The notes under the pieces are model-generated. The model saw only the letters and a list, made by a program, of their open reading frames with translations. It had not been told where the DNA came from and made no database searches. Shown piece by piece: positions 920 to 48,974 of a DNA stretch of 64,000 nt. Positions within the stretch are counted from its first letter, which is position 1, and the number at the start of each line of letters is the position of its first letter. This stretch comes from Ignavibacteriota bacterium (lineage in GTDB: Bacteria > Bacteroidota > Ignavibacteria > UBA10030 > SZUA-254). The translations under genes and the position numbers were made by a program. The stretch covers positions 1 through 64,000 of the forward strand of contig JACREZ010000015.1 in assembly GCA_016212665.1 (NCBI GenBank), read 5' to 3'.

Positions 920-2947
920 GTGGCAGAGCTCATCCCCATCTCCTTCGATAAACTTCTGAAACGCATCTACTACGAATATCAGAAGAACGATTCGATTTTC
1001 GATTTGCCGTCGAGAAAATTTTATCGTCCGAATCCTGAGTTGGATTTATCGGTGATGTTTTGCGGGAACAGGGCGGCGAATCCTGTCGGACCGGCGGCGG
1101 GCCCTCATACACAACTTGCTCAAAACATTGTACTCTCGTGGCTTGCAGGCGCGCGTATTCTTGAACTGAAAACAGTTCAAATCAAAGATGAACTCCAACT
1201 AACACGTCCATGCATTGACATGGCAACAGTTGGCTACAACACTGAGTGGTCGCAGGAATTACGGTTGGAAGATTCGCTTCGAGAGTATGTGAAGGCGAGT
1301 ATGATTATTGAGATTCTGAAAGAATCGTTTGGAGTTTCGGGTTTTGAGTTTCGGGAGAATGAGAAACTAACCCAACCCCCCAACCCAAAACTCGAAACTA
1401 TATTCGATATAAGCGTCGGTTATGACCTTGCGGGAATCCACTCTCCCCAAATCAGAAGTTGGTTGCAAACTATGCGCGATGCTTCAGAATTGATTTCAGA
1501 TTTAAGATTTCAGATCCCCGATGAGTTTGGAGTGTTTCGGGATTTGCCATTCAAATCGGAAATCGGAAACAGCATCACGCTTTCTACATTTCATGGATGT
1601 CCGGCAAATGAAATAGAAAAGATTTGTGAGTTTCTGATTTCAGAGATGGATTTTCATGTTATCATCAAAATGAATCCGCCGATGCTTGGGAAGGAACGGC
1701 TTGAACATTTACTGTATGAGAAACTCGGATACACTGACATCGAAGTTCATCAGAAGGCGTACGATACGAGTATCAAGTTCGATGAAGCGGTTGATATGGT
1801 GCGACGGTTACAATCAGTTGCAATGCGTTGCAACAAGACAATCGGTGTGAAGTTCGGCAACACACTTGAAGTCGTCAACAAAGGAAATTTTCTGAAAGAT
1901 AAGATTCAATATCTTTCAGGTCAGCCGTTGCATATCCTCCATCTTGCGCTTGTGAATGAATGGAGAACGGTGTTCAGCACAGAATTTCCGATTTCTTTTT
2001 CTGCCGGAGTTGATGCGAACAATTTCGCTGATATAGTTTCTATCGGACTTGTTCCCGTAACAACCTGCACTGATTTGCTTCGCCCAGGAGGATACGGGCG
2101 GCTTCCCCAATATCTCTACAATCTTGAACGGAAGATGCTTGAACTTGAGGCAAGAACGGTTGCAGAGTTTATTCAAAAAAGTGATATGCGATATGAGATA
2201 TGCGATATGGACAATGATAAACTCACATCACACGACTCATATCCAACATCCCATATCTCACATCTCACATCAAGAGTGTTAGAACAGAGCATTTCCAATC
2301 CACGATATCATTTTTCCACCAACACAAAAGCCCCGCGGAAAATCGGAAGCCAATTGCATCTTTGGGATTGCATCAACTGCGACAAGTGTATTCCTGTCTG
2401 CCCGAACGATGCAAACTTCTATTTTGAAATTGAACCGTTTGAAATTGTAGTTAAAAATATCGAAATTGTAAACGGCTCGTGGCGATTGATAGACGGTGGC
2501 GTGTTTTCTATTAAAGAAAAACATCAGATAGGAAACTTCGCCGATGCGTGCAACGAGTGCGGTAACTGCGATGTCTTTTGTCCAGAAGACGGCGGACCAT
2601 ACATAGAGAAACCAAGATTTTTTAGTTCGTTAGAAAATTGGAAGAAGTGGAATTCGCAGAGCGGATTCCATTTTGAAAAATCAAATGGTTCGATAATTCT
2701 CTATGGAAGATTTGCAGAAAAAGAATTCACTCTGACACAAGAGGGTGATACGACAAAATTTCAATGTGGTAATATTTGTATCGTGATGGATCCGATTACG
2801 AATTCTTTTCTTGATATAGAAATTCATGAATCCATAAACAAAACTATCGATATGAGATATTATTTTGTGATGAAAACATTAATACGCGGTATGATGAATA
2901 AAAGCCGTGTGCATTTTGTGAATGTTGGTTTGTTTGAAACCACATAA
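920..2947 (+). CDS. ygfK: YgfK-type iron-sulfur oxidoreductase subunit, shortened
   Basis: A relative of YgfK, the predicted redox partner of molybdenum hydroxylases in yge/ygf purine clusters. The N-terminal part resembles the dihydropyrimidine/dihydroorotate dehydrogenase barrel (NPVGPAAGPHTQLAQN near residue 55; HGCPANEIEKICEF and IIKMNPPMLG near 230-255). The C-terminal part has two [4Fe-4S] motifs, CINCDKCIPVCP (about residue 486) and CNECGNCDVFCP (about 545). It is 675 aa, whereas the E. coli protein has about 1030. The GltD-like FAD/NAD(P)H module that normally lies between barrel and clusters is not visible. Two palindromic insertions (1333-1399 and 2190-2271) lie in frame. The start is GTG 920. 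It is followed after 64 bp by the hydroxylase, the likely partner. Confidence 0.8.
   Translation: MAELIPISFDKLLKRIYYEYQKNDSIFDLPSRKFYRPNPELDLSVMFCGNRAANPVGPAAGPHTQLAQNIVLSWLAGARILELKTVQIKDELQLTRPCIDMATVGYNTEWSQELRLEDSLREYVKASMIIEILKESFGVSGFEFRENEKLTQPPNPKLETIFDISVGYDLAGIHSPQIRSWLQTMRDASELISDLRFQIPDEFGVFRDLPFKSEIGNSITLSTFHGCPANEIEKICEFLISEMDFHVIIKMNPPMLGKERLEHLLYEKLGYTDIEVHQKAYDTSIKFDEAVDMVRRLQSVAMRCNKTIGVKFGNTLEVVNKGNFLKDKIQYLSGQPLHILHLALVNEWRTVFSTEFPISFSAGVDANNFADIVSIGLVPVTTCTDLLRPGGYGRLPQYLYNLERKMLELEARTVAEFIQKSDMRYEICDMDNDKLTSHDSYPTSHISHLTSRVLEQSISNPRYHFSTNTKAPRKIGSQLHLWDCINCDKCIPVCPNDANFYFEIEPFEIVVKNIEIVNGSWRLIDGGVFSIKEKHQIGNFADACNECGNCDVFCPEDGGPYIEKPRFFSSLENWKKWNSQSGFHFEKSNGSIILYGRFAEKEFTLTQEGDTTKFQCGNICIVMDPITNSFLDIEIHESINKTIDMRYYFVMKTLIRGMMNKSRVHFVNVGLFETT
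1333..1399. repeat. In-frame inverted repeat inside ygfK
   Basis: The left arm AGTTTCGGGTTTTG (1333-1346) pairs with CAAAACTCGAAACT (1386-1399), 13 of 14 positions. The interior is C-rich low-complexity sequence (AACCCAACCCCCCAACCC). It encodes a polar segment around FRENEKLTQPPNPKLE that looks unlike the surrounding barrel. Confidence 0.6.
2190..2271. repeat. In-frame inverted repeat inside ygfK
   Basis: GATATGCGATATGAGATATG-type sequence on the left (2190-2210) pairs with CCATATCTCACATCTCACATC-like sequence on the right (2251-2271) at 18 of 21 positions. The segment encodes about 27 residues rich in D, M, S, H and T. It falls between the barrel and the ferredoxin part, roughly where longer homologues carry their FAD/NAD(P)H module. 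Confidence 0.6.
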
Positions 2948-3011: not shown

Positions 3012-5597
3012 ATGAAATTAGATTTCACCCTCAACGGTCAACAATTTCAATCAGAAATTTCAGACAATCTCTCGTTGATGGATGTTCTCCGCGAGCAAGC
3101 GGGATTGATTTCTCCCAAGAACGGATGCGCGCCACAAGGTTCGTGCGGTGCGTGTACGGTTATCGTTGATGGAAAAGCGGTTTCATCGTGCGCTGTTCCC
3201 GCGAAGAATGTCGAAGGGAAATCTGTGCATACACTCGAAGGGTTGAATGAGAACGAACGCGACATCTTCGCACGCGCATTTTCCTACTCAGCCGCGATGC
3301 AATGCGGTTTTTGTATTCCCGGAATAGTTGTTCGAGCGAAGCACCTTCTATCTAAAAATCCCGAGCCGACACGAGACGAAATTGCTCATTCATTGAACAA
3401 TAACATTTGCCGATGCACGGGCTACGTGAAAATCATTGATGCGATTGAACTTGCAGGAAAAGCATTTCGGGGCGAGCCGTTGCCGGAACCGGATTATTCA
3501 GGAAAAATCGGGACAAGTTTGCCGAAGATGGATGGCGAAAAGTTTGCTATGGGCGAGCGTCCGTACATTGATGATATGAAATTGCCGGGCATGTTGTATG
3601 CTGCGTTTCTCTTTTCTCCGCACCCGCGAATCAACATCAACAAAATTGATTACACTGACGCGGAAATACTTCCCGGCGTTGTTCGTGTTGTCACCGCAAA
3701 TGATGTTCCCGGTCAACGGAAGCAAGGATTGATTTACAAGGATTGGTCCCTGTTCATTGCTGAGGGAGAAATCACTCATTGCATCGGAGATGTTCTCGCG
3801 GCCGTTGTAGCCGATGATGTTCGGACGGCGAGGAAAGCATGTGAACTCATCAAACTCGATTACGAAATACTCCCCGGGGTATATGACCCTGAAGAGGCAT
3901 TGAAACCCGATGCGCCACGAGTTCACTCAGACCATGACAATCTTCTTTCAAAATCTGTCATCAAGCGGGGTGATGTTGATTCAGCGCTTGCAGAATCTGC
4001 GTTTGTTGAGACGCGAACATTCGAGACGCAGATGATTGAACACGCGTTCCTCGAACCGGAAAGCTCGATTGCTCTGACAAACAACGGAACGCTTGAAGTG
4101 TTCAGTCAGGGGCAAGGCGTGTTCGATGACAGAAAACAAATCGCTTCTTTTCTTGGATTATCGGAAGAGAACGTGAAGGTTACACTCATCACCAACGGCG
4201 GCGCGTTTGGAGGAAAAGAAGATTTAAGCATTCAAGCGCAGGTTGCATTGATGGCAATGCTGGTTGGAAAACCTGTTAAGGCGACCCTGACACGCGAAGA
4301 AAGCATTCGACTTCATCCGAAACGCCATCCGATAAAGATGACGTACACAGTTGGTTGCGACAAGAACGGAAAGTTGACTGCTGTTCGTGCGCGAATGATT
4401 GGCGATAAAGGAGCGTACGCTTCGGTCGGTACGAAAGTGTTGGAGCGAGCGGCAGGACATGCGTGCGGTCCGTACAATATTTTACATTCGGATGTTGAAG
4501 CGCTTGCAGTGTACACAAATAATCTCCCTTGCGGCGCGATGCGCGGCTTCGGAGCGAATCAGGCGGCATTTGCGATTGAAGGAATGATGGATATTCTCGC
4601 GGAGAAAGTCGGGATTGACGGATGGGAAATGCGATGGAGAAATGTTGTGGATGTCGGCGATACGTTCTGCACGGGACAAGTATTCGAGAAAGCGGTCGGC
4701 ATCAAAAAAACTCTCCTTGCAGTGAAAGACATTTTTTACTCATCGAAGTACGCGGGTATCGCGTGCGGTATTAAAAATGTCGGTATTGGAAACGGGATGC
4801 CGGAATACGGACAGGCGATTGTGCGAATTCATCCTGACGAAACAATTACCATCAACACCGGCTTTACAGAAATGGGACAAGGTTTTTGCACGGTGATGAT
4901 TCAGTTTTTTTCTGATGTTACAGGAATTGACCCGCGCAAGGTCCGTGTTGATATTGACACGACACAACCAACCCCCTGCGGAATGACTACTGCTTCCCGT
5001 GCGACGGTACTGGGCGGACGCGCTGTTATCGAAGCGGCGAAGAAAATGAAAATTGATTTGGATTCGGGATTGAAGATTCAGGATTTAGTCGGGAAAGAAT
5101 ATTTCGGTGAAGTGGTGATTGACTACACAACAGCTCTCGACGCAACAACGAACAAACCGATTACTCACATGACGTTCGGATTTGCAACACAGGTTTGTAT
5201 TCTTGATGATTCAGGAAAATTGAAAAAGTTTGTCGCCGCGCATGATGTCGGAAAAGTCATCAACAAAAAAATGCTCGAAGGACAACTCGAAGGTTCGATT
5301 CACATGGGACTCGGTTACGCATTAACGGAAGAACTGAAGTTGAACAACGGTATTCCCGAATCGTTCAAACTCCGCTCGCTTGGATTGCTGAGGGCGAAGG
5401 ATATGCCGGAGACGGAAATTATTCTCATCGAAGAACACGAACCGGAAGGTCCGTTTGGTGCGAAAGGTGTTGGCGAAATCGGTCTTGTGCCGACTGCCGG
5501 CGCCGTTGCTTCTGCGTTGTATAAGTTTGATGGCATTCGTCGGTACAAATTGCCGATGAAAGATTCTCTTGCGGCGAAGGCAATTCACCACGGATAA
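3012..5597 (+). CDS. Molybdenum hydroxylase of the selenium-dependent xanthine dehydrogenase type
   Basis: Predicted purine hydroxylase with the [2Fe-2S] and molybdopterin parts fused in 861 aa. Residues 1-150 carry both clusters: Cys39, 45, 48 and 60, then MQCGFC and CRCTGY. From about 170 the molybdopterin part shows GGAFGGKED, MRGFGANQAAFA and the catalytic-Glu region GAKGVGEIGLVPTAGA near the C-terminus. There is no FAD domain, so electrons must leave through a partner, plausibly YgfK and/or the PduS homologue. XdhC, YgeW and YgeY in the cluster support the selenium-linked family. In that family selenium is a labile cofactor, and no in-frame UGA is needed. The last codons (IHHG, stop) lie inside the GxxExxY element, so the native tail appears replaced. 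Confidence 0.88.
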   Translation: MKLDFTLNGQQFQSEISDNLSLMDVLREQAGLISPKNGCAPQGSCGACTVIVDGKAVSSCAVPAKNVEGKSVHTLEGLNENERDIFARAFSYSAAMQCGFCIPGIVVRAKHLLSKNPEPTRDEIAHSLNNNICRCTGYVKIIDAIELAGKAFRGEPLPEPDYSGKIGTSLPKMDGEKFAMGERPYIDDMKLPGMLYAAFLFSPHPRININKIDYTDAEILPGVVRVVTANDVPGQRKQGLIYKDWSLFIAEGEITHCIGDVLAAVVADDVRTARKACELIKLDYEILPGVYDPEEALKPDAPRVHSDHDNLLSKSVIKRGDVDSALAESAFVETRTFETQMIEHAFLEPESSIALTNNGTLEVFSQGQGVFDDRKQIASFLGLSEENVKVTLITNGGAFGGKEDLSIQAQVALMAMLVGKPVKATLTREESIRLHPKRHPIKMTYTVGCDKNGKLTAVRARMIGDKGAYASVGTKVLERAAGHACGPYNILHSDVEALAVYTNNLPCGAMRGFGANQAAFAIEGMMDILAEKVGIDGWEMRWRNVVDVGDTFCTGQVFEKAVGIKKTLLAVKDIFYSSKYAGIACGIKNVGIGNGMPEYGQAIVRIHPDETITINTGFTEMGQGFCTVMIQFFSDVTGIDPRKVRVDIDTTQPTPCGMTTASRATVLGGRAVIEAAKKMKIDLDSGLKIQDLVGKEYFGEVVIDYTTALDATTNKPITHMTFGFATQVCILDDSGKLKKFVAAHDVGKVINKKMLEGQLEGSIHMGLGYALTEELKLNNGIPESFKLRSLGLLRAKDMPETEIILIEEHEPEGPFGAKGVGEIGLVPTAGAVASALYKFDGIRRYKLPMKDSLAAKAIHHG

Positions 5598-6091
5598 ACA
5601 CGGATGCGACGGAATAACACATATGATGCTTCATCAGGATATAACAGATAAAATCATCAACGCATTTTACACTGTGTACAATACGCTTGGTTCTGGATTT
5701 CTTGAGAAGGTGTATGAGAATGCCTTTGTCATCGAACTTGAGAAAAAAGGATTGCATGTTGAACAGCAAAAGAGGATTGATGTCTTCTACAAAGGCAAGA
5801 AGGTCGGAGAGTATTTTGCTGACATCTGTGTTGAAGGACTGGTCGTTCTTGAATTAAAAGCAGCAGAAGGTATCGCACCCGAACATGAAGCACAACTCAT
5901 CAATTATCTCAAAGCAACAAATATTGAACTTGGATTTTTATTTAACTTCGGACCTAAGCCGATATTCATCAGAAGAATTTTAACAAACGATAAGAAAGGA
6001 ATTAACCACGGATGAACACGAATGCGACGGATTTTTCACAGAGATATCAGTGAACATCCGTGCTTCTACAGTGTAAATCGGTGGTGAATTG
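5581..6091. mobile_element. GxxExxY cassette with terminal inverted repeats
   Basis: The ends are CAATTCACCA (5581-5590) and its exact complement TGGTGAATTG (6082-6091). Just inside, the left end reads CCACGGATAAACACGGATG and a copy CCACGGATGAACACGAATG occurs at 6008-6026, overlapping the end of the gene. A CATCCGTG segment lies near the right end. The 511-bp unit carries a single gene and sits between the hydroxylase and the PLP enzyme. It provides the stop codon of the former and the translation-start region of the latter. No transposase is present, so any movement would need help in trans. Confidence 0.6.
5623..6015 (+). CDS. GxxExxY family protein
   Basis: A 131-aa protein with the signature GFLEKVY in GSGFLEKVYENAF and a following D-x(n)-ExK pattern (DICVEGLVVLELKA) that suggests a PD-(D/E)xK nuclease-like fold. 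The frame stays open upstream to a TTG at 5569, but ATG 5623 or 5626 gives the normal family length. The ending GINHG is encoded by the repeat sequence of the surrounding cassette. Its biological role is unknown. Repeated CACGGAT-type flanks suggest it is the cargo of a small mobile unit rather than a member of the purine pathway. Confidence 0.8.
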   Translation: MMLHQDITDKIINAFYTVYNTLGSGFLEKVYENAFVIELEKKGLHVEQQKRIDVFYKGKKVGEYFADICVEGLVVLELKAAEGIAPEHEAQLINYLKATNIELGFLFNFGPKPIFIRRILTNDKKGINHG

Positions 6092-6093
6092 AA

Positions 6094-7530
6094 ATGATCA
6101 TCAAGAAATTTAAACAAGACGTAATTAAAAAAACTGCTGCTCGCTGTAAAAAACACGGCATTACCATTCCCACATTCGCGCAGATGCGAAACCCGAATCT
6201 CGTTCCGCAATCAGTCAAGGAGAAACTTCCAAAGATTGGTTTGTGGGATGTTGACCCGGCTAATCTCTTCCGCATAACATGGAAGAACGACACGCAAACG
6301 GGACTGTATGGCGGAGTCAATTATCTTGAAATTCCGAAAGAGATTACGGGAGTAAAAGCGAGAATCATCGGACTTATCGGAAAATATTTTCCGACAGGAG
6401 CGCATAAAGTAGGTGCGGCGTTCGGTTGTTTGGTGCCGCGACTTGTCAGCGGCGAGTTTGACCCGGACAAACACAAAGCAGTGTGGCCCTCGACAGGAAA
6501 TTTTTGCCGCGGCGGAGCGTTTGTTTCTTCCTTGCTTGATTGTACTGCGGTTGCAATCTTGCCTGAGGGAATGTCGAAAGAACGGTTCGCTTGGCTGAAA
6601 GAAATCGGAGCGGAGGTGATTGCAACTCCCGGTACCGAATCGAACGTGAAAGAAATTTATGATAAGTGCTGGGAACTGAAACGAGACCCGCTCAATGTCA
6701 TCTTCAATCAGTTTGAAGAATTCGGCAATCCGATCTGGCATTACAATGTAACGGGTCCTGCAATTGAAGAAGTGTTTCAATCGCTTGGAAAAAATCTTCG
6801 GGCATCGGCGTACATTTCGGCAACCGGTTCGGCGGGAACGATCGGCGCGGGGGATTATCTCAAAAAACAATTTCCACATCTGAAGGTTGTTGCGACAGAA
6901 GCGTTGCAATGTCCGACTCTGTTCATGAATGGTTTCGGTGCGCATCGTATTGAAGGCATTGGTGACAAGCACGTGCCGTGGGTTCATAATGTTTTGAACA
7001 CAGATGCAGTTGCGGCAATTGACGATGAAGATTGCATGAGAGTTCTTCGGTTGTTCAATGAACAGGAAGGTCAAAAATTGTTATGCGGTGAGCAGGGAGC
7101 GGTGAGCGGTGATTTGTCTATTCTTGGAATCTCAGGGATCTGCAATATGCTTGCAGCAATCAAGACAGCGAAGTATTACGAGATGAATGAGAACGACGTC
7201 ATCTTCACGATTTTCACCGATTCGTCTGACTTGTATCAATCTCGTTTGAAAGAGTTGGAAGAGGAGCGCGGCAAATATTCGATCATGCAGGCGGCAAAAG
7301 ATTTCGCCGGACCGCTTGAACATCAGAGCATTGATTACTTCAAAGAACTTTCGTACTATGACCGGAAAGCAATTCACAATCTCAAATACTTTACGTGGGT
7401 TGAACAGCAGGGACGAAGTTCCGACGAACTGAACGCTCAGTGGAACCCTGATTTCTGGACGAGAATGTTTGAGGAAGAAGTGAATGAGTTTGATAATCTC
7501 ATAGAAGAGTTTAATCGTCATGCGATGTGA
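6094..7530 (+). CDS. Fold-type II PLP-dependent enzyme (TrpB-like), purine cluster
   Basis: A 478-aa pyridoxal-phosphate enzyme. PTGAHKVGAAFG resembles the GAHK motif of tryptophan synthase beta and holds the likely Schiff-base lysine. STGNFCRGG supplies the asparagine-containing loop, and ATGSAGTIGAG looks like the phosphate-binding loop. In E. coli and gut anaerobe purine clusters the equivalent place is taken by YgeX, a fold-type II 2,3-diaminopropionate ammonia-lyase of about 400 aa. This protein is longer and differs in motif, so an analogous amino-acid lyase role is inferred rather than shown. Its start region is formed by the end of the GxxExxY cassette. It overlaps the next gene by 4 bp. 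Confidence 0.75.
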   Translation: MIIKKFKQDVIKKTAARCKKHGITIPTFAQMRNPNLVPQSVKEKLPKIGLWDVDPANLFRITWKNDTQTGLYGGVNYLEIPKEITGVKARIIGLIGKYFPTGAHKVGAAFGCLVPRLVSGEFDPDKHKAVWPSTGNFCRGGAFVSSLLDCTAVAILPEGMSKERFAWLKEIGAEVIATPGTESNVKEIYDKCWELKRDPLNVIFNQFEEFGNPIWHYNVTGPAIEEVFQSLGKNLRASAYISATGSAGTIGAGDYLKKQFPHLKVVATEALQCPTLFMNGFGAHRIEGIGDKHVPWVHNVLNTDAVAAIDDEDCMRVLRLFNEQEGQKLLCGEQGAVSGDLSILGISGICNMLAAIKTAKYYEMNENDVIFTIFTDSSDLYQSRLKELEEERGKYSIMQAAKDFAGPLEHQSIDYFKELSYYDRKAIHNLKYFTWVEQQGRSSDELNAQWNPDFWTRMFEEEVNEFDNLIEEFNRHAM

Positions 7531-8963
7531 GATATGCGATTGAAAGAATAGTAAAACACCAAGTACAAAGAACCAAAGAGTTGGATATTCAAGATAAAAT
7601 AAGATACGCCGGTATCGTCGGCGCAGGCGGCGGCGGGTTTCCCGCGCACGTGAAAGCCGCGTCGAAGGTTGATACCGTCATTGCGAACGGCGCTGAATGC
7701 GAGCCGCTCATCCATAAAGATTATGAGTTGATGGTGAACTATCCTGAGCGAGTTGTTCATGGACTTCTTCTCTTGATGGAATCAACGGGTGCGAAGCGGG
7801 GAATAATTGGCGTGAAGGAAAAGAACAAAGCGGCGATTGAGGCATTGAACAAGGTGATTCAGGATTTAGGATTAAAGATTCAAGATGAATCAACGACTAC
7901 TCACCACTTTCACCCGCCTACGGCGGGCATGCCAATAACGATTCACCAACTGGGCGATTTCTATCCGTCCGGCGACGAGTACATTCTCGTCTATGAAGCA
8001 ACGAAGCGGTTGATTCCTCCGCAGGGAATTCCGCTCGATGTTGGTATTGTGGTGAACAATGTTGAAACGCTCTACAATATTTCCAAAGCGAAAGATGATG
8101 AGCCGGTGATTGAGAAATTTATTACCGTCTCAGGCGCGGTGAAGCATCCTGTTTCATTTCTTGCGCCGATTGGAATGAGCTATCGTGAGGCGATTGAATC
8201 GGCGGGTGGTGTGAGTGTGAAGGAGTATGGCGTGTTTGTCGGCGGGGTGATGATGGGGAAATTGGAATTCGATTTGGAAAAACCAATTACGAAAACAACT
8301 GCCGGGTTGATTGTTCTTCCGAAGGAACATACGCTCATTCAGCGAAAGAGTCAACCGGAGAAAGCAATGCATCGCATCGGGAAATCGGCGTGCGACCAAT
8401 GCAGTTACTGCACGGAACTTTGCCCGCGGTATGTTCTTGGTTACGATGTTCAGCCGCATAAGGTGATGCGAAGTCTCGGCTTCACAACAACAGGAGAAAA
8501 CATCTGGAATCAGTTTGCGCAACTTTGTTGTGCCTGTGGCTTGTGTACGTTGTACGCATGTCCCGAAAGTCTTTTCCCGAAAGAAGCGTGCGACAAAGCC
8601 AAGCACGACTTGAAAGAACAAGGCATCAAATGGTCTGGAAGAAAGGAAGTCGAACCGCATCCAATGTATGAAGGACGAAGAACACCGCTCAAACAACTGA
8701 TGAAGCGACTCGGCGTTGAAGAGTACAATCACGCATCGGAATTTTGTAAGGATGGCTGTAAGCCATCGAAGGTTGAAATTCAGTTGTTGCAACATATCGG
8801 TTCTCCTGCGTTGCCGATTGTCCGAGTCGGTGAAACGGTGAAGCGCGGACAGTGCATTGGAGAGATTCCTGAGGGAAAACTTGGGGCGAGAGTACATGCG
8901 AGTATTGATGGAGTAGTTACTCATATCAATGGAAGTATTATTATTCAGGCAATGCAAAATTAA
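7527..8963 (+). CDS. pduS: PduS/RnfC-like NADH-oxidising iron-sulfur flavoprotein
   Basis: This 478-aa protein matches the RnfC/PduS layout: a glycine-rich flavin/NADH region (GIVGAGGGGFPAHVK, then GAECEPLIHKDYEL), a YPSGDEYILVYEATKR segment, an SLBB-type segment (VSGAVKHPVSFLAPIGMSY), two ferredoxin motifs (CDQCSYCTELCP and CCACGLCTLYACP), and a C-terminal barrel-sandwich part. In Pdu microcompartments PduS oxidises NADH and partners PduT, and the next gene here is a PduT homologue. GTG 7527 overlaps the previous stop (GTGA), but a start near LDIQDKI (about 7581) is also possible. Two palindromes (7913-7927 and 8751-8767) lie in frame. Confidence 0.82.
   Translation: MRYAIERIVKHQVQRTKELDIQDKIRYAGIVGAGGGGFPAHVKAASKVDTVIANGAECEPLIHKDYELMVNYPERVVHGLLLLMESTGAKRGIIGVKEKNKAAIEALNKVIQDLGLKIQDESTTTHHFHPPTAGMPITIHQLGDFYPSGDEYILVYEATKRLIPPQGIPLDVGIVVNNVETLYNISKAKDDEPVIEKFITVSGAVKHPVSFLAPIGMSYREAIESAGGVSVKEYGVFVGGVMMGKLEFDLEKPITKTTAGLIVLPKEHTLIQRKSQPEKAMHRIGKSACDQCSYCTELCPRYVLGYDVQPHKVMRSLGFTTTGENIWNQFAQLCCACGLCTLYACPESLFPKEACDKAKHDLKEQGIKWSGRKEVEPHPMYEGRRTPLKQLMKRLGVEEYNHASEFCKDGCKPSKVEIQLLQHIGSPALPIVRVGETVKRGQCIGEIPEGKLGARVHASIDGVVTHINGSIIIQAMQN
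7913..7927. repeat. Small palindrome in frame inside pduS
   Basis: CCCGCC-TAC-GGCGGG is a perfect 6-bp stem with a 3-base loop. It encodes part of an HPPTAGMP segment absent from the usual RnfC pattern. A similar GCCGCCTACAGCGGT word occurs in the non-coding DNA near 38.24 kb. Confidence 0.5.
8751..8767. repeat. Small palindrome in frame inside pduS
   Basis: GATGGCT-GTA-AGCCATC is a perfect 7-bp stem encoding the DGCKPS segment near residue 410. It looks like a short dispersed palindrome that has been absorbed into the gene. Confidence 0.5.
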
Positions 8964-9012
8964 AAATGCAAAATGCAAAAAAGGGTTTAGAAATTCTTAT
9001 CTTTGAATTATC

Positions 9013-9564
9013 ATGACACGAAACTCCATAGGACTTATTGAACTGACGAGCATCGCCGCGGGATATCAGGTTGCCGATGCAATGTTGAAAGCGGCTGACG
9101 TTGAGATTATTCTCTCACGGACAATTTGCTCGGGCAAATACATGGTGTTAATTGGCGGAGATGTTTCTGCGGTTACCGCGAGCGTACAGGCAGGCGGAGT
9201 TGCCGGGCGCGGCTCTATTATTGATGTGTTCATCATTCCCAATGTTCACCCGGCGGTGTTTCCCGCAATTTCGGGGATGAACAAGGTTGAAATGCTTGAA
9301 GCGCTCGGTATCGTTGAATCGTTTTCGGTTGCTTCGTTAATTGAAGCCGCCGATGCCGCAGTAAAAGCATCGCGTGTAGAGTTGATTGAAATCCGGCTTG
9401 CGATGGCGCTTGGCGGAAAAGCGTTCTTCACTCTAACCGGCGATGTTGCCGCAGTGCAAGCTGCCGTTGACGCAGGCGCAGCAGTCATTGCAGAAAAAGG
9501 ATTGCTGGTGAATAAAGTCGTTATTCCGCATCCGAGGAAAGAGTTGTTGTCGGAAAAGATTTAG
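9013..9564 (+). CDS. pduT: PduT-like tandem-domain microcompartment (BMC-T) protein
   Basis: A 183-aa protein made of two BMC domains (about 4-90 and 95-180), similar along its length to PduT. The N-terminus is IGLIELTSIAAGYQVADAML; later come NVHPAVFPAISGMN, a second GIVESFSVASLIEAADAA, and the tail GLLVNKVVIPHP. Cys39 in TICSGKY corresponds to the pore cysteine through which PduT trimers bind a [4Fe-4S] cluster. It follows the PduS homologue, its known partner in Pdu systems. No BMC-H or BMC-P shell genes occur in the window. It may be an electron conduit kept without a full shell, or it may join shells encoded elsewhere. Confidence 0.9.
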   Translation: MTRNSIGLIELTSIAAGYQVADAMLKAADVEIILSRTICSGKYMVLIGGDVSAVTASVQAGGVAGRGSIIDVFIIPNVHPAVFPAISGMNKVEMLEALGIVESFSVASLIEAADAAVKASRVELIEIRLAMALGGKAFFTLTGDVAAVQAAVDAGAAVIAEKGLLVNKVVIPHPRKELLSEKI

Positions 9565-9586: not shown

Positions 9587-10003
9587 ATGAGCATAGACCT
9601 GAAAAATCCTTTGACTATAGATATTCAAAAAAGACTTCATTCTTGTGGAGTTGAACTTGTTTATCTTTTCGGTTCGCACGCGGAAGGAACGGAACATCCT
9701 CTCAGCGATGTGGATATTGGCGTTGTTTTCTCTTCACCGCTCTCTGATGAAAACGTATCAGATATGTACAATGAACTCTATGATATTTTTACAGATGTTT
9801 TCCCACAGCATAGCGTTGATATTGTTTTGTTGCAACGAGCAGGTTTAGAATTGTGTTTCGATGTTATCTCGCATGGAAAAATTTTGTTCGAAGCGAAACC
9901 GGGGTCAAGATACGACTTTATAGAATACATACAGATAATGTATGCAGATTTTCGACCGCACCTGGATGAGTTTAACAAACAAGTTCTGGAGAGAATAGGA
10001 TGA
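9587..10003 (+). CDS. mntA: MntA-type nucleotidyltransferase antitoxin
   Basis: A 138-aa minimal nucleotidyltransferase. LFGSHAEGTEHPLSDVDIG holds the GSxxxG loop and the DxD metal pair, and DIVLL supplies the third acidic residue. MntA proteins neutralise the HEPN toxin HepT by adding AMP to a tyrosine near its active site. The next gene overlaps by 4 bp (ATGA) and encodes HepT. The pair interrupts the purine cluster and is probably a passenger. Confidence 0.88.
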   Translation: MSIDLKNPLTIDIQKRLHSCGVELVYLFGSHAEGTEHPLSDVDIGVVFSSPLSDENVSDMYNELYDIFTDVFPQHSVDIVLLQRAGLELCFDVISHGKILFEAKPGSRYDFIEYIQIMYADFRPHLDEFNKQVLERIG

Positions 10004-10461
10004 TGGAAACGCCGCTCAAAGCACAATCTATTATTCCACGGATTGATGGAATACAACGGGATGTAGAAAAACTCAAGGAACTTGTTGGGCTTTCATTTGA
10101 ACAATTTGAGAACGAAACAAACTTTGTCCTTGCTCAATATTATTTACGTCGTGCATTGGAGGGAGTCTTCCATATTGGTTTGCACCTTCTCTCCCGATTA
10201 CCGGGCAACCGTTCTACAGAATACAAAGCAATAGCAATTCAACTCGGTGAGTGCGGGGTTGTTGAAAAACAATTTGCACAAACCGCTCTCAAAAACATGG
10301 CTGGCTATCGAAACAGGTTGACTCACTTTTATGCTGATGTTACACCGAAAGAAATTTATTCAATACTGCAAAAGAATCTCGGTGATTTTGATGTTTTTCT
10401 AAAAGCAGTAAGAGAAGTTATGAAACATCCTGAGAAGTACGGCTTTAGTGTTGAGAAGTAA
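10000..10461 (+). CDS. hepT: HepT-type HEPN ribonuclease toxin
   Basis: A 153-aa all-helical HEPN protein of the DUF86 type. YRNRLTHFY contains R-x4-H-x-Y: the Arg/His pair is the RNase motif and the tyrosine is the residue AMPylated by MntA in characterised pairs. The toxin is therefore probably active and controllable. Translation is coupled to mntA through ATGA. Confidence 0.88.
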   Translation: MMETPLKAQSIIPRIDGIQRDVEKLKELVGLSFEQFENETNFVLAQYYLRRALEGVFHIGLHLLSRLPGNRSTEYKAIAIQLGECGVVEKQFAQTALKNMAGYRNRLTHFYADVTPKEIYSILQKNLGDFDVFLKAVREVMKHPEKYGFSVEK

Positions 10462-10494
10462 CTGAATGACATTTTATTGAAAAGAGTACTTACT

Positions 10495-13400
10495 ATGAAA
10501 GCTACTTTTACACTTAGTATCTACATTCTGTTCTGCTCACTTGTATCCGTCACAAACGCGCAGTTTGTGAACGACAACCTATGGGCAACGGATGGACGAG
10601 TGTATGCTATTGTTACTTCCGGTAATACTATTTATATAGGAGGACAATTTACGTATGTTGGACCGCCGACGGGGCCTGGAGCAGCGATTGATATTGCAAC
10701 AGGGCAACCTGACCGAGCTTTACCAAAAGTGAATGGAGATGTTTATGCAGTGGTTTCCGATGGCGCGGGAGGATGGTATATTGGCGGATACTTCTCTGAA
10801 GTTGGAGGGGTACCGAGGAACAATATCGCCCACATTAAAGCTGACAAAACGCTAGACTTGAATTGGAATCCGAATGCAAACAGTAATGTTAATGCTATTA
10901 CCGTTTCAGGAACAACTGTGTATGTAGGAGGGGAGTTCACAAGCATCGGCGGACAGGCAAGGAATTATATTGCCGCACTTAATGCCTCATCGGGCAGCGC
11001 AACAAGTTGGAATCCGAATGCAGACAATAGGATTTATGCATTTGTTGTCTCAGGAACGACTGTGTATGTAGGAGGGCAGTTCACAAGTATCGGCAGACAG
11101 GCAAGGAATTGTATTGCCGCGCTTGATGCAACAACTGGTAATGCCATAAGTTGGAATCCGAATGCAAACAGAACGGTTGATGCTCTTACAGTTTCTGGAA
11201 CAACCGTGTATGCAGGAGGCGCTTTCACGAACATCGGCGGTCAATCAAGAAATCACATCGCCGCTCTTGATGCTACTACGGGTAATATTACAAACTGGAA
11301 TCCGAATGCAAGTTCTTCAGTTATAGCACTTGTCGTCTCAGGAACCACTGTGTATGCAGGAGGATGGTTCACAAGCATCGGCGGACAGGCAAGGAATTAT
11401 ATTGCCGCGCTTGATGCCACGACAGGAAACGCCACAAGTTGGAATCCCAACGCGAATTACGTAGTTAACGCTCTTACTATTTCAGGAACAACTGTTTATA
11501 CGGTAGGAGGTTTTGATAGCATTGGTGGTCAGTCAAGAAATCGTATCGCCGCTCTTGATGCTTCAACTGGGAACGCGACAAACTGGAACACCGATGCAAA
11601 CGGAGAGGTTAATGCTCTTGCTATTTCAGGAACTACGGTGTATGCCGGAGGTATGTTCACGAGCGTTGGTGGACAATATAGAAATAACATTGTTGCTCTT
11701 GATGCTACAACAGGAAATGCAACAAGTTGGAATCCGAATGCAAACGATGTGGTTCGTGCACTTGCAGTCTCGGGAACAACCGTCTATGCCGGAGGATACT
11801 TCACAAGTATTGGCGGTCAAACAAGGAATCGTATTGCCGCGCTTGATGCTACGACAGGTAACGCAACAAGTTGGGACCCGAATGCAAATGGTGATGTTGA
11901 TGCTCTTGCAGTTTCAGGAACTATTGTGTATGCAGGAGGACTTTTCGGTAGCATCGGCAGTCAATCAAGAAATTTCATCGCTGCACTCAATACCACAACG
12001 GGCTACGCTACAAGTTGGAATCCGAATGCAAACGATTTTGTTGAAGCTCTCGCCATTTCAGGAACAACCGTCTATGCCGGAGGATACTTCACAAGTATTG
12101 GTGGACAAACAAGAAATTGTATCGCCGCACTCAATACCACAACGGGCACCGCAACAAGTTGGAACCCGAATGTAATCGGCGGGGTTCTTGCACTTACTAT
12201 CTCAGGAACTAAAGTGTATGCAGGAGGACAATTCGACAGCGTAGGCGGGCAAGCAAGGAATAATATTGCCGCGCTTGATGCCACTACTGGAAATGCAACA
12301 AGTTGGAATCCGAATGCAAACAGTGATGTTCGTACACTTGCTGTCTCCGGAACAACCGTGTATGCGGGGGGAAGTTTCGATAGCATTGGTGGTCAGTCGA
12401 GAAATTATATCGCCGCTCTTGATGCCACCACGGGAAATGCCACAAACTGGAATCCTAATGCAAACAGTGTTGTTCGTGCACTTGCTTTTTCCGGAACGAC
12501 GGTGTATGTAGGAGGAAGTTTCGATGACATTAATTACAGTGGACACTCTTATTTTGCCGGAATTGTACCGCAACTGTTTAACGTAACTTCATCAGTGGCT
12601 GGTAATGGTACTATCTCTCCAATCGGTAACGTCAATGTCGTAATAGGAGAACAGCAAAGTTTTACTGTTACCCCAATTACTAACTGGCACACTGACAGCA
12701 TTGTCGTTGACGGTCAACGTGTTGATTCACTGTCAAGTTATACGTTTTACGACGTAGATACAACCCACACCATTATCGCTTATTTCACGCCGGATAGTTC
12801 TTTCTCGACCATACAAATGAATGCAAGATGGAATCTTGTTTCTGTTCCCGTTCTGTCAAATGATTACAGAAAAACCACGTTGTTTTATTCTGCAATGTCA
12901 TCTGCCTTTGCTTATCAAGAAGGTTATGAAGAGAAGGATACACTCGCCGTTGGTGTCGGTTACTGGATGAAATTCTCTACTGCAGAGCCGGTGTACATTC
13001 CGGGTTCAGTCGTTACTACCGAAACTGTGAATGTTGCTGAAGGATGGAATATCATAGGTTCAATTTCTCAGTCTGTTCAAACATCAAACATTACAAGCCT
13101 TCCTCCGGGAATTGTTACCACTGAATTTTTCGGGTACAATGCAGGCTATTCTCCAAGTTCAACAATTGAGCCGGGCAAAGGTTACTGGGTAAAAGCTAAC
13201 GAAGCAGGGCAACTTATTCTTTCTTCTGTTATCTCTTCATCAGTTTCAAGCAGAATAAAAATTATTCCAACTTCGGAGTTGCCTCCGCCTCCGCCCGATG
13301 GTGAAATCACTAATCACGAATCACAAATTCCGAATCACTTTATTCTTGAACAGAACTATCCCAATCCGTTTAATCCATTAACCGTTATTCGTTATCAGTT

Positions 13401-13720: not shown

Positions 13721-14935
13721 ATGAAACCTTCATTCGAACACATCTACAAAACAGCACAAAAGAACGAACCACAAGTCGCTCAATTTCTTCGCGACATTAT
13801 TGCCATCAAATCATTAAGTTCGCAGGAGGAGCAAGTCATTCATCGCATCAAACAGGAGATGGAGAAATGCAACTTCGATGAGATTACGATAGACGGCATG
13901 GGTAACATTCTCGGTCGCATCGGTCACGGGAAGCACATCATTGCGATGGATGCGCATGTGGATACGGTTGATGTCGGTAACCCGGCAAACTGGACGATTG
14001 ACCCGTTCAAAGGCGCGGAGAAGGACGGTATCATCTACGGTCGCGGCGCATGCGATATGAAAGGCGCGCTCGCTTCAATTGTCTATGGCGGAAAAATTAT
14101 CAAAGAACTTGGACTTGAAGACGACTACACGCTTTATATTGTCGGAAGTGTGCAGGAGGAAGATTGCGACGGACTCTGCTGGCAATATATCATCAATGAA
14201 GATAAGTTAAGACCGGAAGTTGTGGTGATTACCGAGCCGACAAACCTTGCTGTCTATCGCGGTCACCGCGGGAGAATGGAAATTGAAGTACGCACAAGAG
14301 GAATTTCGTGTCACGGCTCTGCGCCGGAACGCGGAGTAAATGCTGTCTATAAAATGGCGCCAATCATTCAGGATATAGAAAAGTTGAATGAACGTCTTGG
14401 CGGCGAACCGTTCCTCGGAAAAGGAACGGTGACGATTGCTGAAGTCCGTTCGACTTCGCCTTCGCTCTGTGCCGTTGCTGATTCAGCAACGATTCATCTT
14501 GACAGACGACTTGCCGCAACCGATACGCTCGAATCAGCCGTCAAAGAAATTCAAGAACTGCCGAGTGTGAAGAAAGCGGGAGCCGAGGTTGTCGTTCTCG
14601 ATTATGCAGTCCCGAGTTGGAAAGGATTAACATATCCAACAAAAAAATATTACCCGACATGGCTGTTACCGGAAAATCATTCTGTGCTTGATGCTGGCGT
14701 AAAAACGTTTGAGGGATTATTTGGCACCAAGCCGGAAGTGAGTCGCTGGGTATTTAGTACGAACGGTGTTGCCGTGATGGGAATGCATGGTATTCCTTGT
14801 ATCGGCTTTGGTCCCGGAAACGAAATTTATGCGCACATGGCAACCGAGCAAATCCCGATTGAGCATCTTGTGAAAGCAAGCGCGTGGTATGCGGCGTTTC
14901 CTTTGAATTATTTTAATGGTCAACGTGAACGGTGA
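13721..14935 (+). CDS. ygeY: YgeY-family M20 hydrolase of selenium-linked purine clusters
   Basis: A 404-aa metallohydrolase. Metal ligands of the M20 family are visible in MDAHVDTVD, GRGACDMKGALAS, VQEEDCDG and the C-terminal AHMATEQIP. The first half matches the YgeY-type proteins found with xanthine dehydrogenase and YgeW clusters. It is thought to cleave an amide in the ring-opened purine or carbamoylated amino-acid product; the substrate is not settled here. The 85 bp before it are low-complexity AACC/GTAACC words. Confidence 0.85.
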   Translation: MKPSFEHIYKTAQKNEPQVAQFLRDIIAIKSLSSQEEQVIHRIKQEMEKCNFDEITIDGMGNILGRIGHGKHIIAMDAHVDTVDVGNPANWTIDPFKGAEKDGIIYGRGACDMKGALASIVYGGKIIKELGLEDDYTLYIVGSVQEEDCDGLCWQYIINEDKLRPEVVVITEPTNLAVYRGHRGRMEIEVRTRGISCHGSAPERGVNAVYKMAPIIQDIEKLNERLGGEPFLGKGTVTIAEVRSTSPSLCAVADSATIHLDRRLAATDTLESAVKEIQELPSVKKAGAEVVVLDYAVPSWKGLTYPTKKYYPTWLLPENHSVLDAGVKTFEGLFGTKPEVSRWVFSTNGVAVMGMHGIPCIGFGPGNEIYAHMATEQIPIEHLVKASAWYAAFPLNYFNGQRER

Positions 14936-15608: not shown

Positions 15609-16610
15609 ATGCCAACAAAACTCCCCATTCTCCCGAACGCCGTTCGGGGAAAAGACTATATCGAAACCAAAGACTGGTCAATCAAAGAAATTGAACTCGC
15701 GCTGAAAACTTCTTCAGATTTGAAGAAGATGTTCAGAGCAGGAAAGTCGCACCGGTATTTACCGGACAAAACGATTTTCTTATTCTTCTTTGATAAATCA
15801 ACACGCACAAGAAATTCGTTTGAAGCAGGAGCGACACAACTTGGAGCGCACGCGCATTTCATCGCGGCGGAAACATCACAGGTTGCTCATGGAGAATCGC
15901 CGAGAGATATGGGAATCATTCTTTCGAGTTACGGTCATGCGATTGCCATTCGCCACGACCTTGTGCCGGGGGAAGGAAATTCATACATGCGCGAGGTTGC
16001 AAAGAATTCAGACCGACCTGTGCTGAACATGCAATGCGATATTGACCATCCGTTTCAAACGCTTGCCGATTTGATGACAATCAGAGAAGAATTCGGAAAG
16101 AATTTGCGCGGGCGAAAGATTGCTGTTTCGTGGGCGTACGCACCGAGTTATGCGAAGCCAATGTCTGTCCCGCAAGGATTGATTACATTGATGCCGCGCT
16201 TCGGACTTGATGTTGTTCTCGCTCATCCGCCGGAATATAAATTGATGAAAAGCGAAATGGAGTACGCGAAGAAAGCCGCGAAAGAAAACGGAACCAAGTT
16301 TGAAGTTGTTGATAACATGGATGAAGCGTTCAAAGATGCCGACATCGTGTATCCAAAATCGTGGGGAATTGAGACACTGTTTCATAAGCCGGAAGAAGCA
16401 TTGAAACTCTCAAAGAAATACAAGTATTGGATTTGCGATGAGAAGAAAATGAAACTCACAAAGAAGGAGGCGATTTACATGCACTGTCTTCCGGCAGATC
16501 GAGGTTACGAGGTCACCGATGCAGTGATTGATGGTCCACAATCGCGTGTGTTTCCCGAAGCAGAAAACCGTCTCCATACTTGCAAATCAGTGATGGCGTT
16601 GACAATGTGA
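15609..16610 (+). CDS. ygeW: YgeW-type knotted carbamoyltransferase
   Basis: A 333-aa member of the aspartate/ornithine carbamoyltransferase superfamily. The carbamoyl-phosphate site is FDKSTRTRNSFE. DHPFQTLADLMT and MHCLPADRGYEVTD are the other conserved segments. Family members occur with selenium-dependent purine catabolism and probably transfer a carbamoyl group from, or to, a purine breakdown product such as 2,3-diaminopropionate. In the catabolic direction this would yield carbamoyl phosphate and hence ATP. A clear AAAAAGGA ribosome-binding region precedes ATG 15609. Confidence 0.92.
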   Translation: MPTKLPILPNAVRGKDYIETKDWSIKEIELALKTSSDLKKMFRAGKSHRYLPDKTIFLFFFDKSTRTRNSFEAGATQLGAHAHFIAAETSQVAHGESPRDMGIILSSYGHAIAIRHDLVPGEGNSYMREVAKNSDRPVLNMQCDIDHPFQTLADLMTIREEFGKNLRGRKIAVSWAYAPSYAKPMSVPQGLITLMPRFGLDVVLAHPPEYKLMKSEMEYAKKAAKENGTKFEVVDNMDEAFKDADIVYPKSWGIETLFHKPEEALKLSKKYKYWICDEKKMKLTKKEAIYMHCLPADRGYEVTDAVIDGPQSRVFPEAENRLHTCKSVMALTM

Positions 16611-16619
16611 AATCAGTTG

Positions 16620-16675
16620 CAGGTTTGAGGTTAGGGGTTCGCGTATGAAGCCGTACTGTTCAAACCTCAAACCTG
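16620..16675. repeat. Inverted repeat upstream of xdhC
   Basis: CAGGTTTGAGG (16620-16630) and CCTCAAACCTG (16665-16675) are exact complements, set in AACCTCAAACC low-complexity DNA. An open reading extension of xdhC through this stretch (from ATG 16645) is judged non-native. Confidence 0.55.
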
Positions 16676-16695
16676 TAACCTCAAACCAAGAATCT

Positions 16696-17844
16696 ATGGA
16701 TATATACTCAGAAATACTTTCCGCGCTCGAAACAGAAGAGAGCATCATGCTCGCAACAGTAATTTCGACGAGCGGTTCGACTCCGGCTTCCGCGCTTTCA
16801 AAAATGCTTGTGAAGCGTGGCGGTGTTTTGACTGTCGGGACGATTGGCGGAGGTTGCATGGAAGGTGAAGTTGTGCAACATGCTAATCGGATTTATGGAA
16901 GCGGGAAAGCAGAAATTCATTCATTTGAATTAAATGAAGATGAAACTGAATCGGGATTGATTTGCGGCGGAACTCTCGAAGTGCTTCTCGAACCGATTAC
17001 GAGAGAGCATATCAAACTGTTCACAGAGGTTAAAGCGATTCGCGACGAAGGCGAAGATTGTGTTGTAACCACATTGGTTTCGCCTGAAGGAACAATCGCG
17101 ATGAAAGAAGTTCTTCCGATCGCGCCGCAACATACAACCGAGTGGGGAAGCCGTGTTGTCAAGAAAATGGAAAAGTTGGTGTTCGCTTTTTCTGACCCGG
17201 AATTTCAATCGAAACCGATTTCCGATATTGTGAAGAAAGCCTTTCACAATCAGCAGACAAAACGAATGAAGACTGAGCAAGGAGAATTTTTCCTTGAGCC
17301 GGTACGCGGTACGCCTTCGCTTATTATTTTCGGAGGTGGTCATGTCTCAAAATATATTTCTTCATTTGCTTCGATTGCCGGATTTCAGGTAACGATTGTT
17401 GATGACCGTGAGAAGTATGCAAACCCGGTCCGGTTTCCGGAAGCGACAGCAACGCTTGCGCTTGATTACGGACAAGCATTAGAGAAATTGAAAATCCGCG
17501 AATCAACATACGTTGTGATTGTCACGCGCGGGCATCAGTATGATGAGGAGATTCTCAAGCGTATCATCAAGACTCCGGCACGGTACATTGGAATGATTGG
17601 AAGTAAGAGGAAAGTTCTGACGACGTATGAACACTTACTTCCCCGCGGAATTTCTATTGAGGCGTTGAAACGCGTTCACGCTCCGATTGGAATTGAAATC
17701 GGCGCAGTGACTGCGGAGGAAATTGGCGTCAGCATCGTTGCACAACTTATCAATGAACGCCGCGGAGGAGTCCCGTTACGAAATAAATCTGCGGAACTGA
17801 ATGAGCAACTCCGGGCGTTTGAGCAAAAGAAATCAATTGCCTGA
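16696..17844 (+). CDS. xdhC: XdhC-family molybdenum-cofactor maturation factor
   Basis: 383 aa from ATG 16696; the longer frame from 16645 reads through a repeat. The N-terminal XdhC/CoxI part shows ISTSGSTPASALSKMLV and GTIGGGCMEGEV. The C-terminal Rossmann part shows IFGGGHVSKYIS and IGMIGSKRK. XdhC binds molybdenum cofactor, promotes its sulfuration and inserts it into xanthine dehydrogenase, so the hydroxylase at 3.0 kb is the probable client. It is followed after 6 bp by the amidohydrolase-like gene. Confidence 0.88.
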   Translation: MDIYSEILSALETEESIMLATVISTSGSTPASALSKMLVKRGGVLTVGTIGGGCMEGEVVQHANRIYGSGKAEIHSFELNEDETESGLICGGTLEVLLEPITREHIKLFTEVKAIRDEGEDCVVTTLVSPEGTIAMKEVLPIAPQHTTEWGSRVVKKMEKLVFAFSDPEFQSKPISDIVKKAFHNQQTKRMKTEQGEFFLEPVRGTPSLIIFGGGHVSKYISSFASIAGFQVTIVDDREKYANPVRFPEATATLALDYGQALEKLKIRESTYVVIVTRGHQYDEEILKRIIKTPARYIGMIGSKRKVLTTYEHLLPRGISIEALKRVHAPIGIEIGAVTAEEIGVSIVAQLINERRGGVPLRNKSAELNEQLRAFEQKKSIA

Positions 17845-19162: not shown

Positions 19163-19756
19163 ATGATAGTCGGTGTTATTCTTGCGGCGGGGGCTTCCAG
19201 CAGAATGGGAACTCCCAAACCATTATTGAAAATTGGGGAGGAAACATTTCTTCAGCGTATTGTTCGTGTTCTCCACTCAGCAAGAGTGATGGAAAATATT
19301 CTGGTTCTTGGTTCACACGCAGAGCAACTTCAAGCCTCGTTGTCGTGGTTTGATGGAAAAATTGTAGTGAACAATCATTGGGAACAAGGGCAGATGTGTT
19401 CGTTACGAGCAGGACTTTCAGCAGTAGAAATTGAAAAAGCGCACGGCGTTATTGTTTGTCCGGTTGACCGACCATTGCTGACACAATCGCTTGTAGTTGA
19501 TTTATTGCAGGGCTTCTGGAAATCAAACAAAAATATCGTTCTCCCCAAGTACAACGAACGACGGGGACATCCCGTAATTTTTGGAACCTCTATGTTTGAT
19601 GCGCTTCAAACTGCACCGATGAATGAAAGCGCCCGGTTCATCATCCATAACCATCCGGAAGAAATTTTGGAAGTTCCTGTTGATGAAGAAGGTGTCCTTG
19701 TGAACATTGATACGCCGGATGATTACAAGTTTTTGCAAATGAAATTTGCTCAATGA
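19163..19756 (+). CDS. mocA: MocA-like molybdenum cofactor cytidylyltransferase
   Basis: A 197-aa nucleotidyltransferase with LAAGASSRMGTPKPLL for nucleotide binding, CPVDRPLL as the metal-binding aspartate segment and RRGHPVIF as the substrate motif. It probably attaches CMP to molybdopterin or acts on a related purine-hydroxylase cofactor. It begins 7 bp after the amidohydrolase and overlaps moeA by 4 bp. Confidence 0.85.
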   Translation: MIVGVILAAGASSRMGTPKPLLKIGEETFLQRIVRVLHSARVMENILVLGSHAEQLQASLSWFDGKIVVNNHWEQGQMCSLRAGLSAVEIEKAHGVIVCPVDRPLLTQSLVVDLLQGFWKSNKNIVLPKYNERRGHPVIFGTSMFDALQTAPMNESARFIIHNHPEEILEVPVDEEGVLVNIDTPDDYKFLQMKFAQ

Positions 19757-48860: not shown

Positions 48861-48974
48861 GACTTTGATAAGCTTGTTATTCTGAGTACATTCAGGCAAT
48901 TAGAAGACCACAAATAGCAATTCTATTTTACTTCACAACAATTTCGGATAGATATTTCAAGAAAGGATAGCATT

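Follow-up and report, generated by a model that had tools for sequence, protein, structure and literature searches.

The first 64,000 nucleotides of contig JACREZ010000015.1 (C15) of an Ignavibacteriota bacterium (assembly GCA_016212665.1, genome G000, 3.91 Mb in 45 contigs, 99.65% complete), called the window below, begin with a cluster in which a PduS-type flavoprotein and a PduT-like shell protein of the bacterial microcompartment (BMC) family are encoded among genes of purine catabolism. Every cluster gene in the first 20 kb lies on the + strand. Among relatives of this genome, PduS tracks the joint presence of a shell marker and a purine marker. The principal genes of the cluster are the following:

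920..2947, + strand: ygfK-like flavoprotein, short form (675 aa); TIGR03315, 413 bits, below the 835 cut-off
3012..5597, + strand: selenium-type xanthine dehydrogenase (XDH) homolog, Se-XDH, 861 aa; TIGR03311, 992.6 bits, cut-off 830
6094..7530, + strand: pyridoxal phosphate (PLP)-dependent fold-II enzyme (PALP); PF00291
7527..8963, + strand: PduS, NADH/FMN flavoprotein family with two 4Fe-4S motifs; Pfam, structure match and alignment
9013..9564, + strand: PduT-like BMC-T shell protein; two PF00936 domains, pore Cys39
13721..14935, + strand: ygeY hydrolase; NF009555, 589.9 bits, and TIGR03526, 584.6 bits (cut-off 321.5), both over their cut-offs
15609..16610, + strand: ygeW-like carbamoyltransferase, short form; PRK07200, 263.5 bits, and TIGR03316, 248.3 bits, below the cut-offs of 453 and 500
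16645..17844, + strand: XdhC-like maturation factor; NF045664, 321.9 bits, slightly under the cut-off of 350

The gene calls of a sequence-only reading of this DNA were borne out, with open reading frames (ORFs) where it had placed them and strong profile or domain matches; chance is no issue for the gene identities because the profile and structure matches are so strong. That reading had described the product of 3012..5597 as a molybdenum hydroxylase without an FAD domain, and Pfam indeed detected Mo-binding and [2Fe-2S] domains and no FAD domain in a protein scoring over the TIGR03311 cut-off; it is a probable urate/xanthine oxidoreductase. A point that it missed is the short form of ygfK. 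The match of this gene is chiefly to positions 5-396 of the 1012 of TIGR03315, and a Pfam scan of the product found Fer4 (ferredoxin) domains only, the 4Fe-4S dicluster being kept and an FAD/NAD(P)H domain remaining undetected. The PLP gene adjoins homologs of YgeY, XDH or SsnA in relatives and is present in 46/98 genomes of the order; its product is probably the diaminopropionate lyase of the purine pathway.

Both members of the electron-transfer pair proved to be what the same reading had called them. PduS contains PF01512, SLBB, Fer4_17 and RnfC_N, the four Pfam domains reported for PduS (PMC6325248), its best matches in the Protein Data Bank are RnfC structures, and alignment revealed both cysteine motifs of the Citrobacter freundii protein (PMC2982820), at C289/292/295/299 and C334/337/340/345. 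The true start of the gene is probably the TTG at 7581. The BMC-T protein, with its two PF00936 domains, has 3nwg as its best solved match (E 2e-55); for 3pac ('Shell protein'), 3n79 and 3vcd (PduT) the E values range from 4e-48 to 1e-44, and the alignment to PduT structures covers nearly its full length. The proposed cluster-binding residue, Cys39, was invariant in 15/15 aligned BMC-T proteins. Likeness to the PduS and PduT of PDU/GRM microcompartments thus extends to domains, cluster motifs, pore cysteine and gene adjacency (PMC2982820, PMC6325248); the differences are that purine enzymes share the operon here and that the BMC-T scored 126.6 bits against TIGR02526 (PduT equivalog), under its cut-off of 250. 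In C. freundii, PduS is NADH-dependent, carries FMN and 2x[4Fe-4S], and co-purifies with PduT (PMC2982820). For the PDU proteins, the PduT trimer is reported to carry a 4Fe-4S cluster in the shell pore and PduS to bind PduT (PMC2982820, PMC6325248); PduS has been described as retained without an encapsulation peptide (PMC6325248).

The sequence-only reading had called the cluster one without shell genes, and offered a microcompartment with shell genes elsewhere as one of two options. The first statement holds for the 64 kb window, where the matches on C15 are only the two halves of the BMC-T and no further BMC or EutN gene was found, but not for the genome. When the genome was searched with the Pfam BMC (PF00936) and EutN profiles, the BMC profile gave four domain matches, namely the two BMC-T halves and two adjacent BMC-H genes (C38:48394-48621 and 48713-48940), and three BMC-P (EutN) genes were found, a pair at C25:91439-91687 and 91779-92027 and a single gene at C25:124696-124947. 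The shell set is thus split over four places on three contigs, three of these places, on two other contigs, holding the two BMC-H and three BMC-P genes. No complete shell operon with its own PduS and PduT was found: the BMC-T and the strong PduS of the window are the only ones found in the genome, the other PduS match reaching just 21 bits. Together with the tracking of EutN by PduS among relatives, these results support the option of a microcompartment whose other shell genes lie elsewhere.

The same genomic places recur in relatives. In fetched stretches of relatives, this genome included, and with gene names assigned by eye from translations, the BMC-H pair lay at most about 5 kb from a pdxJ-like gene in 17/20 pair loci; one of the remaining three (L098) has pdxJ in the stretch at an unmeasured distance, and two lack it (locus L104 was not counted as a pair locus). 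In 12/12 loci a sigma-70-like gene lay no more than 0.4 kb from the BMC-P pair, and the single BMC-P had a dprA-like gene within 0.13 kb and a glmM-like gene within 2.4 kb in 10/10 loci. Because of this recurrence, the scattered shell looks old and vertically inherited.

To relate PduS to shell and pathway, matches to the PLP marker, PduS and EutN were sought in the 98 genomes available for the order, a shell being scored as at least one EutN match and the purine pathway as a PLP marker match at E<=1e-60. A distant, PVM-like PduS of 41-44% identity is encoded in six genomes (G031, G043, G054, G074, G075, G078), which were kept out of the main tables. Among the resulting 92 genomes, PduS was present in 29/32 with both EutN and marker, 3/28 with EutN only, 0/9 with the marker only and 2/23 with neither; for genomes at least 90% complete the corresponding figures were 23/26, 2/20, 0/7 and 1/17. 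The purine effect among EutN-positive genomes gave a Fisher p of 2e-10 and a family-stratified p of 5e-6, and the shell effect among marker-positive genomes gave 6e-7 and 0.006, respectively. Without families f1 and f3, in which the genes are linked, the table was [[20,2],[3,19]] (p 4e-7), and when the six set-aside genomes were counted as PduS-negative, the table of PduS by marker was [[47,17],[5,29]] (p 3e-8). Genome size, considered as a confounder, added little beyond the marker.

The exceptions are few. PduS occurred with EutN but no marker in G022, G042 and G071, was lacking in G005, G045 and G077 in spite of EutN and marker, and was found without either in G034 and G083. In G083 it lies on a short contig with BMC-H-like and aldehyde dehydrogenase (AldDh)-like genes, probably representing another BMC type. 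The PLP marker scores G014 and G034 as purine-negative although XDH and PreTA-type genes are present, in G014 together with an SsnA-like gene; if scored as pathway-bearing, G014 would be a further exception, with shell and pathway but no PduS.

Gene neighbourhoods of PduS vary within the order. A PduS of the kind in the window was found in 26 of the 60 nearest genomes and in 34/98 genomes of the order, three of the 60 having instead the more distant PduS of 41-44% identity. The distant protein is encoded in G043 and G054 at a locus with AldDh and AckA; at the G031 locus PduT, AldDh and AckA appear in the ORF list, and the distant PduS was placed there by search. The pair lies among purine genes in 9/34 genomes (families f1 and f3), usually in the order PLP-pduS-pduT-ygeY, and PduS directly follows a different XDH in 5/34 (G018, G051, G080, G084, G085), which are all five f5 genomes of genera g15 and g37. 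Whether the gene order recurs in related genomes was a check proposed by the sequence-only reading; xdh-PLP-pduS-pduT-ygeY was found again, but only in families f1 and f3. A tree of PduS proteins unites the three XDH-linked sequences that it contains in a clade of their own (100/99); those linked to purine genes in f1 and f3 fall together in one larger, weakly supported group (86/89). In family f2 the pair is near a MutS-like and a sigma-like gene in 4/5 genomes, and near MutS at a contig end in the fifth.

The pathway itself occurs in two forms, form A (this genome) with an Se-XDH lacking FAD and a short YgfK, and form B with flavin-bearing partners. Twenty loci at other strong XDH matches in relatives were examined, and most carry, whole or in part, a set of SsnA-like, three-subunit XDH, PreT/PreA-like, PLP, YgeY and YgeW genes; at L224, L227 and L220 the pathway was not clearly shown. 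SsnA-like genes, labelled by eye, occur in clusters of relatives. In G005, G017, G041 and G045, Se-XDH is accompanied by a YgfK of the short kind (666-686 aa; that of G041 alone was scanned with Pfam) but not by PduS. Two narrower ideas lost ground in this survey. Se-XDH as the specific partner of PduS was rejected, as many PduS genomes are without Se-XDH and most unlinked XDH loci represent the second form of the pathway, and the idea of PduS as a substitute for missing flavin modules was weakened, as those four genomes do without PduS and flavin-containing form B variants keep PduS and PduT.

The pair was also followed beyond the order. The best 80 PduS loci of a scan of named genomes came from Ignavibacteria, Acidobacteriota, Armatimonadetes and others, 13 of them from genomes of the order (ORF calling missed PduS in 4/80 loci and some PduT in GC-rich loci). 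Strong purine or XDH neighbours, by best-hit labels, were seen at four of these 80 (L130, L134, L136, L150), all in the order. YgeY was then searched in 50 PduS-bearing genomes and exceeded its cut-off in 26; three of the 50 were removed because their loci (L134, L137, L145) are identical to contigs of G085, G071 and G091, genomes of the order. A match over the cut-off was obtained in 24/47 PduS-bearing genomes outside the order and in 1/14 control genomes; by record label, these were 21/29 of Ignavibacteria/Bacteroidetes/Chlorobi type or unlabelled, 2/13 of Acidobacteria type and 1/5 others. The 10/10 best-scoring YgeY loci have purine neighbours. One genome with both PduS-PduT and YgeY is, by its record title, that of Stygiobacter electus strain 09-Me. 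Co-occurrence of PduS and YgeY outside the order supports the link, as a suggestive result only, in a sample without a PduS-negative comparison set.

Other features of the cluster are listed here, those named by eye being marked as such:

first 20 kb, listed before ygfK, + strand: Nth-like gene
5569-6015, + strand: GxxExxY-like ORF (by eye)
9587-10461, + strand: nucleotidyltransferase/HEPN-like pair, among the purine genes (by eye)
between ygeY and ygeW, + strand: PIN-like ORF (by eye)
between the xdhC-like and mocA-like genes, + strand: amidohydrolase-like gene
19163..19756, + strand: MocA-like molybdenum cofactor nucleotidyltransferase (by eye), clustering with the same gene in relatives

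Small genes like the GxxExxY and nucleotidyltransferase/HEPN ORFs also break up the cluster in some relatives. Two large proteins of ~1050 aa with similar starts are encoded at 10477-13635 and 55184-58330, the first being built of [28 protein letters not shown] repeats. A search confined to the window gave no match to SsnA in the reference set, and inspection by eye, with no profile search made, brought up no B12 or glycyl-radical enzyme there. Predicted promoters in the window were near the shuffle expectation (15 vs 12.2) and terminators above it (12 vs 7.9); neither was used.

Several observations concern the shell loci. In the product of the second BMC-H gene (C38:48701-49402, or L008:18701-19402), the linker is long and charged and the C-terminal end forms a conserved tail, approximately LxxMTVHELRxYARxxxGLSIxGRxISRANRxxLIxELxKxKF, that is found at 19 loci (18 others among L090-L109) and by eye resembles a Rho_N/SAP-like nucleic-acid-binding motif; in the copy of this genome, Pfam at 1e-3 recognised nothing other than BMC. 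The region C38:28132-33420 (L014/L008), some 16 kb ahead of the BMC-H pair, holds a second, flavin-bearing XDH pair (itself at C38:28.1-32.0 kb by best-hit labels) and an amidohydrolase-like gene; this XDH may convert xanthine to urate. At C38:37108-39822 (L008:7108-9822) lies an ORF for a DnaB-like helicase (904 aa), seemingly with an intein as judged by eye from the translation.

A classical metabolosome core was looked for in this genome and not found. PduL (PF06130) is absent from it and present in 5/60 relatives, and no BMC-type AldDh was detected at E<=1e-40 with the one AldDh query used, which a distant AldDh may escape; at that threshold the enzyme was found in the same five relatives as PduL (G018, G031, G043, G051, G054). 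In G018 (L104) and G051 (L083/L089), AldDh, PduL and three BMC-P genes are close together on one contig, and PduS lies away from that stretch, behind an XDH.

The shell set fits FRAG microcompartments, whose shell genes lie at several genomic places and whose function is unknown (Sutter et al. 2021, PMC8217296). Shared features are the split shell genes (four places here), three BMC-P genes (2+1), an Ignavibacteria-related host and the lack of a recognised signature enzyme beside the BMC-H and BMC-P genes (PMC8217296). The differences are that BMC-T and PduS lie among purine genes here and that PduL and a close BMC-type AldDh were not found. FRAG1-7 are listed among AldDh-encoding types (PMC8217296). 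The main text of that catalog makes no mention of purine, the XAU xanthine-utilisation microcompartment or PduS.

With respect to the pathway, the sequence-only reading had assigned the cluster to purine oxidation. The purine genes are indeed present, but the direction is uncertain and 'oxidation' may be backwards, because the known pathway of this kind, with YgfK, YgeW and YgeY, is reductive (PMC12507026). In that pathway, an XDH homolog converts urate to yanthine, YgfK reduces yanthine further, and later enzymes, among them YgeY, which cleaves the ureido group, end in diaminopropionate and pyruvate (PMC12507026). The window cluster resembles the reductive urate clusters of Escherichia coli and Clostridioides difficile in YgfK, YgeW, YgeY, the PLP enzyme and the XDH homolog, and C. 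difficile, whose XdhD and UacX lack flavin, offers a parallel to the FAD-less Se-XDH and the short YgfK found here; the flavin-poor enzymes of that species are thought to use ferredoxin (PMC12507026). It differs in that YgfK and YgeW are under the equivalog cut-offs (413 vs 835 and 248 vs 500 bits) and SsnA is not seen in the window, and in having a shell protein and PduS, both unmentioned in the available text of PMC12507026.

The reading we favour, and to which we give about even chances, is that a FRAG-type microcompartment has PduS and PduT as its redox port, and that this port is kept in the order mainly for reductive purine (urate) catabolism. Trimeric PduT would hold a 4Fe-4S cluster in its pore, and PduS, docked on PduT, would exchange electrons between NAD(H) and Fe-S carriers, with the purine redox enzymes (here Se-XDH and YgfK) on one face of the shell and the NAD(H) pool on the other. 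Electrons might flow either way: the potential of +99 mV reported for the PduT of PDU (PMC2982820, PMC6325248) would favour their moving from NADH outwards, while to reduce urate they would have to travel inwards at low potential. The pair would be an add-on to the shell, as it is missing from most genomes that have the shell but not the purine marker. A more far-reaching proposal, that the FRAG shell is itself a purine (urate/xanthine) redox organelle in which the sole BMC-T, together with PduS, wires flavin-less oxidoreductases inside to cytosolic NAD(H), we put forward tentatively, as a possibility that we doubt.

Several observations weigh against a purine role of the pair. By the labels used, 20/34 PduS genomes have no purine or XDH gene beside it, form B retains PduS and PduT with its flavin-bearing partners, and only 2/13 Acidobacteria-type PduS genomes carry YgeY, which indicates that the pair has other uses. 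G022 (100% complete) has the shell and the pair, yet neither a TIGR03311 match nor the PLP marker; conversely, PduS is missing from G005 and G045, which possess the shell, Se-XDH and YgfK in its short form (669 and 686 aa). As many shell genomes lack the purine marker, the shell must serve another cargo as well. The association statistics were computed without a species tree, that is, with no phylogenetic correlation test, and a genus-stratified permutation went in the same direction with p = 0.10 only, few genera being informative. Finally, a comparison by eye of relatives with and without the shell revealed no N- or C-terminal extension, as a candidate encapsulation peptide, that was specific to shell-bearing genomes on Se-XDH, PLP, YgeY, YgeW, SsnA or PLP2, and encapsulation of the purine enzymes stays hypothetical.

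Part of this evidence would also suit a general role, in which PduS-PduT is a common FRAG shell part for another cargo and its co-occurrence with purine genes comes from shared regulation or ecology. The pair occurs widely in Ignavibacteria and Acidobacteriota and generally has no purine genes nearby, as the best 80 loci illustrate; it is found in G022 without a TIGR03311 match and in f2 near MutS-like and sigma-like genes, and the purine enzymes lack encapsulation-type extensions. Such a part should persist in shell-bearing genomes without the marker, but 25/28 of these lack PduS, and two distinct arrangements join the pair to purine oxidoreductases; we therefore regard the general role as a serious minority possibility. 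The other option of the sequence-only reading, a shell-free cytosolic electron-transfer complex of PduS and PduT with the hydroxylase, is now disfavoured and appears improbable. In its favour, BMC-T is the sole shell gene in the cluster, and Se-XDH and YgfK must each have an electron partner, as neither showed a flavin or NAD(P)H module. The genome nevertheless encodes BMC-H, BMC-P and BMC-T, PduT belongs to a shell-forming family, and none of the nine EutN-less marker genomes has PduS (the six set aside apart), versus 29/32 with both.

The sequence-only reading had also raised the question of a xanthine-associated microcompartment, now identifiable as XAU (Ravcheev et al. 2019, PMC6620236), in which purine catabolism is likewise combined with BMC shell proteins and predicted to involve a microcompartment. 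A locus that is a member or derivative of XAU is hardly credible here. In the available text of PMC6620236, XAU is reported only in Firmicutes, with other enzymes (hydrolases, a decarboxylase and a formimidoyltransferase) and with shell genes inside the same cluster, while XDH activity is proposed to take place outside the shell; the present cluster has YgfK, YgeW, YgeY and the PLP enzyme, and its BMC-H and BMC-P genes lie apart, in scattered places.

Among the papers listed by full-text searches of an open-access library, none connects FRAG microcompartments or PduT to the purine pathway described here, and what is new is the proposed FRAG microcompartment with a purine-linked redox module. 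According to the 2021 catalog, FRAG function awaits a revealing correlate (PMC8217296), and the PduS-PduT pair, nearly confined to genomes with both shell and pathway, offers a testable functional correlate for part of the FRAG group. If true, a FRAG purine organelle would represent a type of purine microcompartment other than XAU, and one that lacks an aldehyde core. The role of PduS and PduT in glycyl-radical microcompartments has been described as open (PMC6325248), and the role proposed here would place the pair outside B12 and glycyl-radical chemistry, as a possible electron supply for flavin-less urate enzymes.

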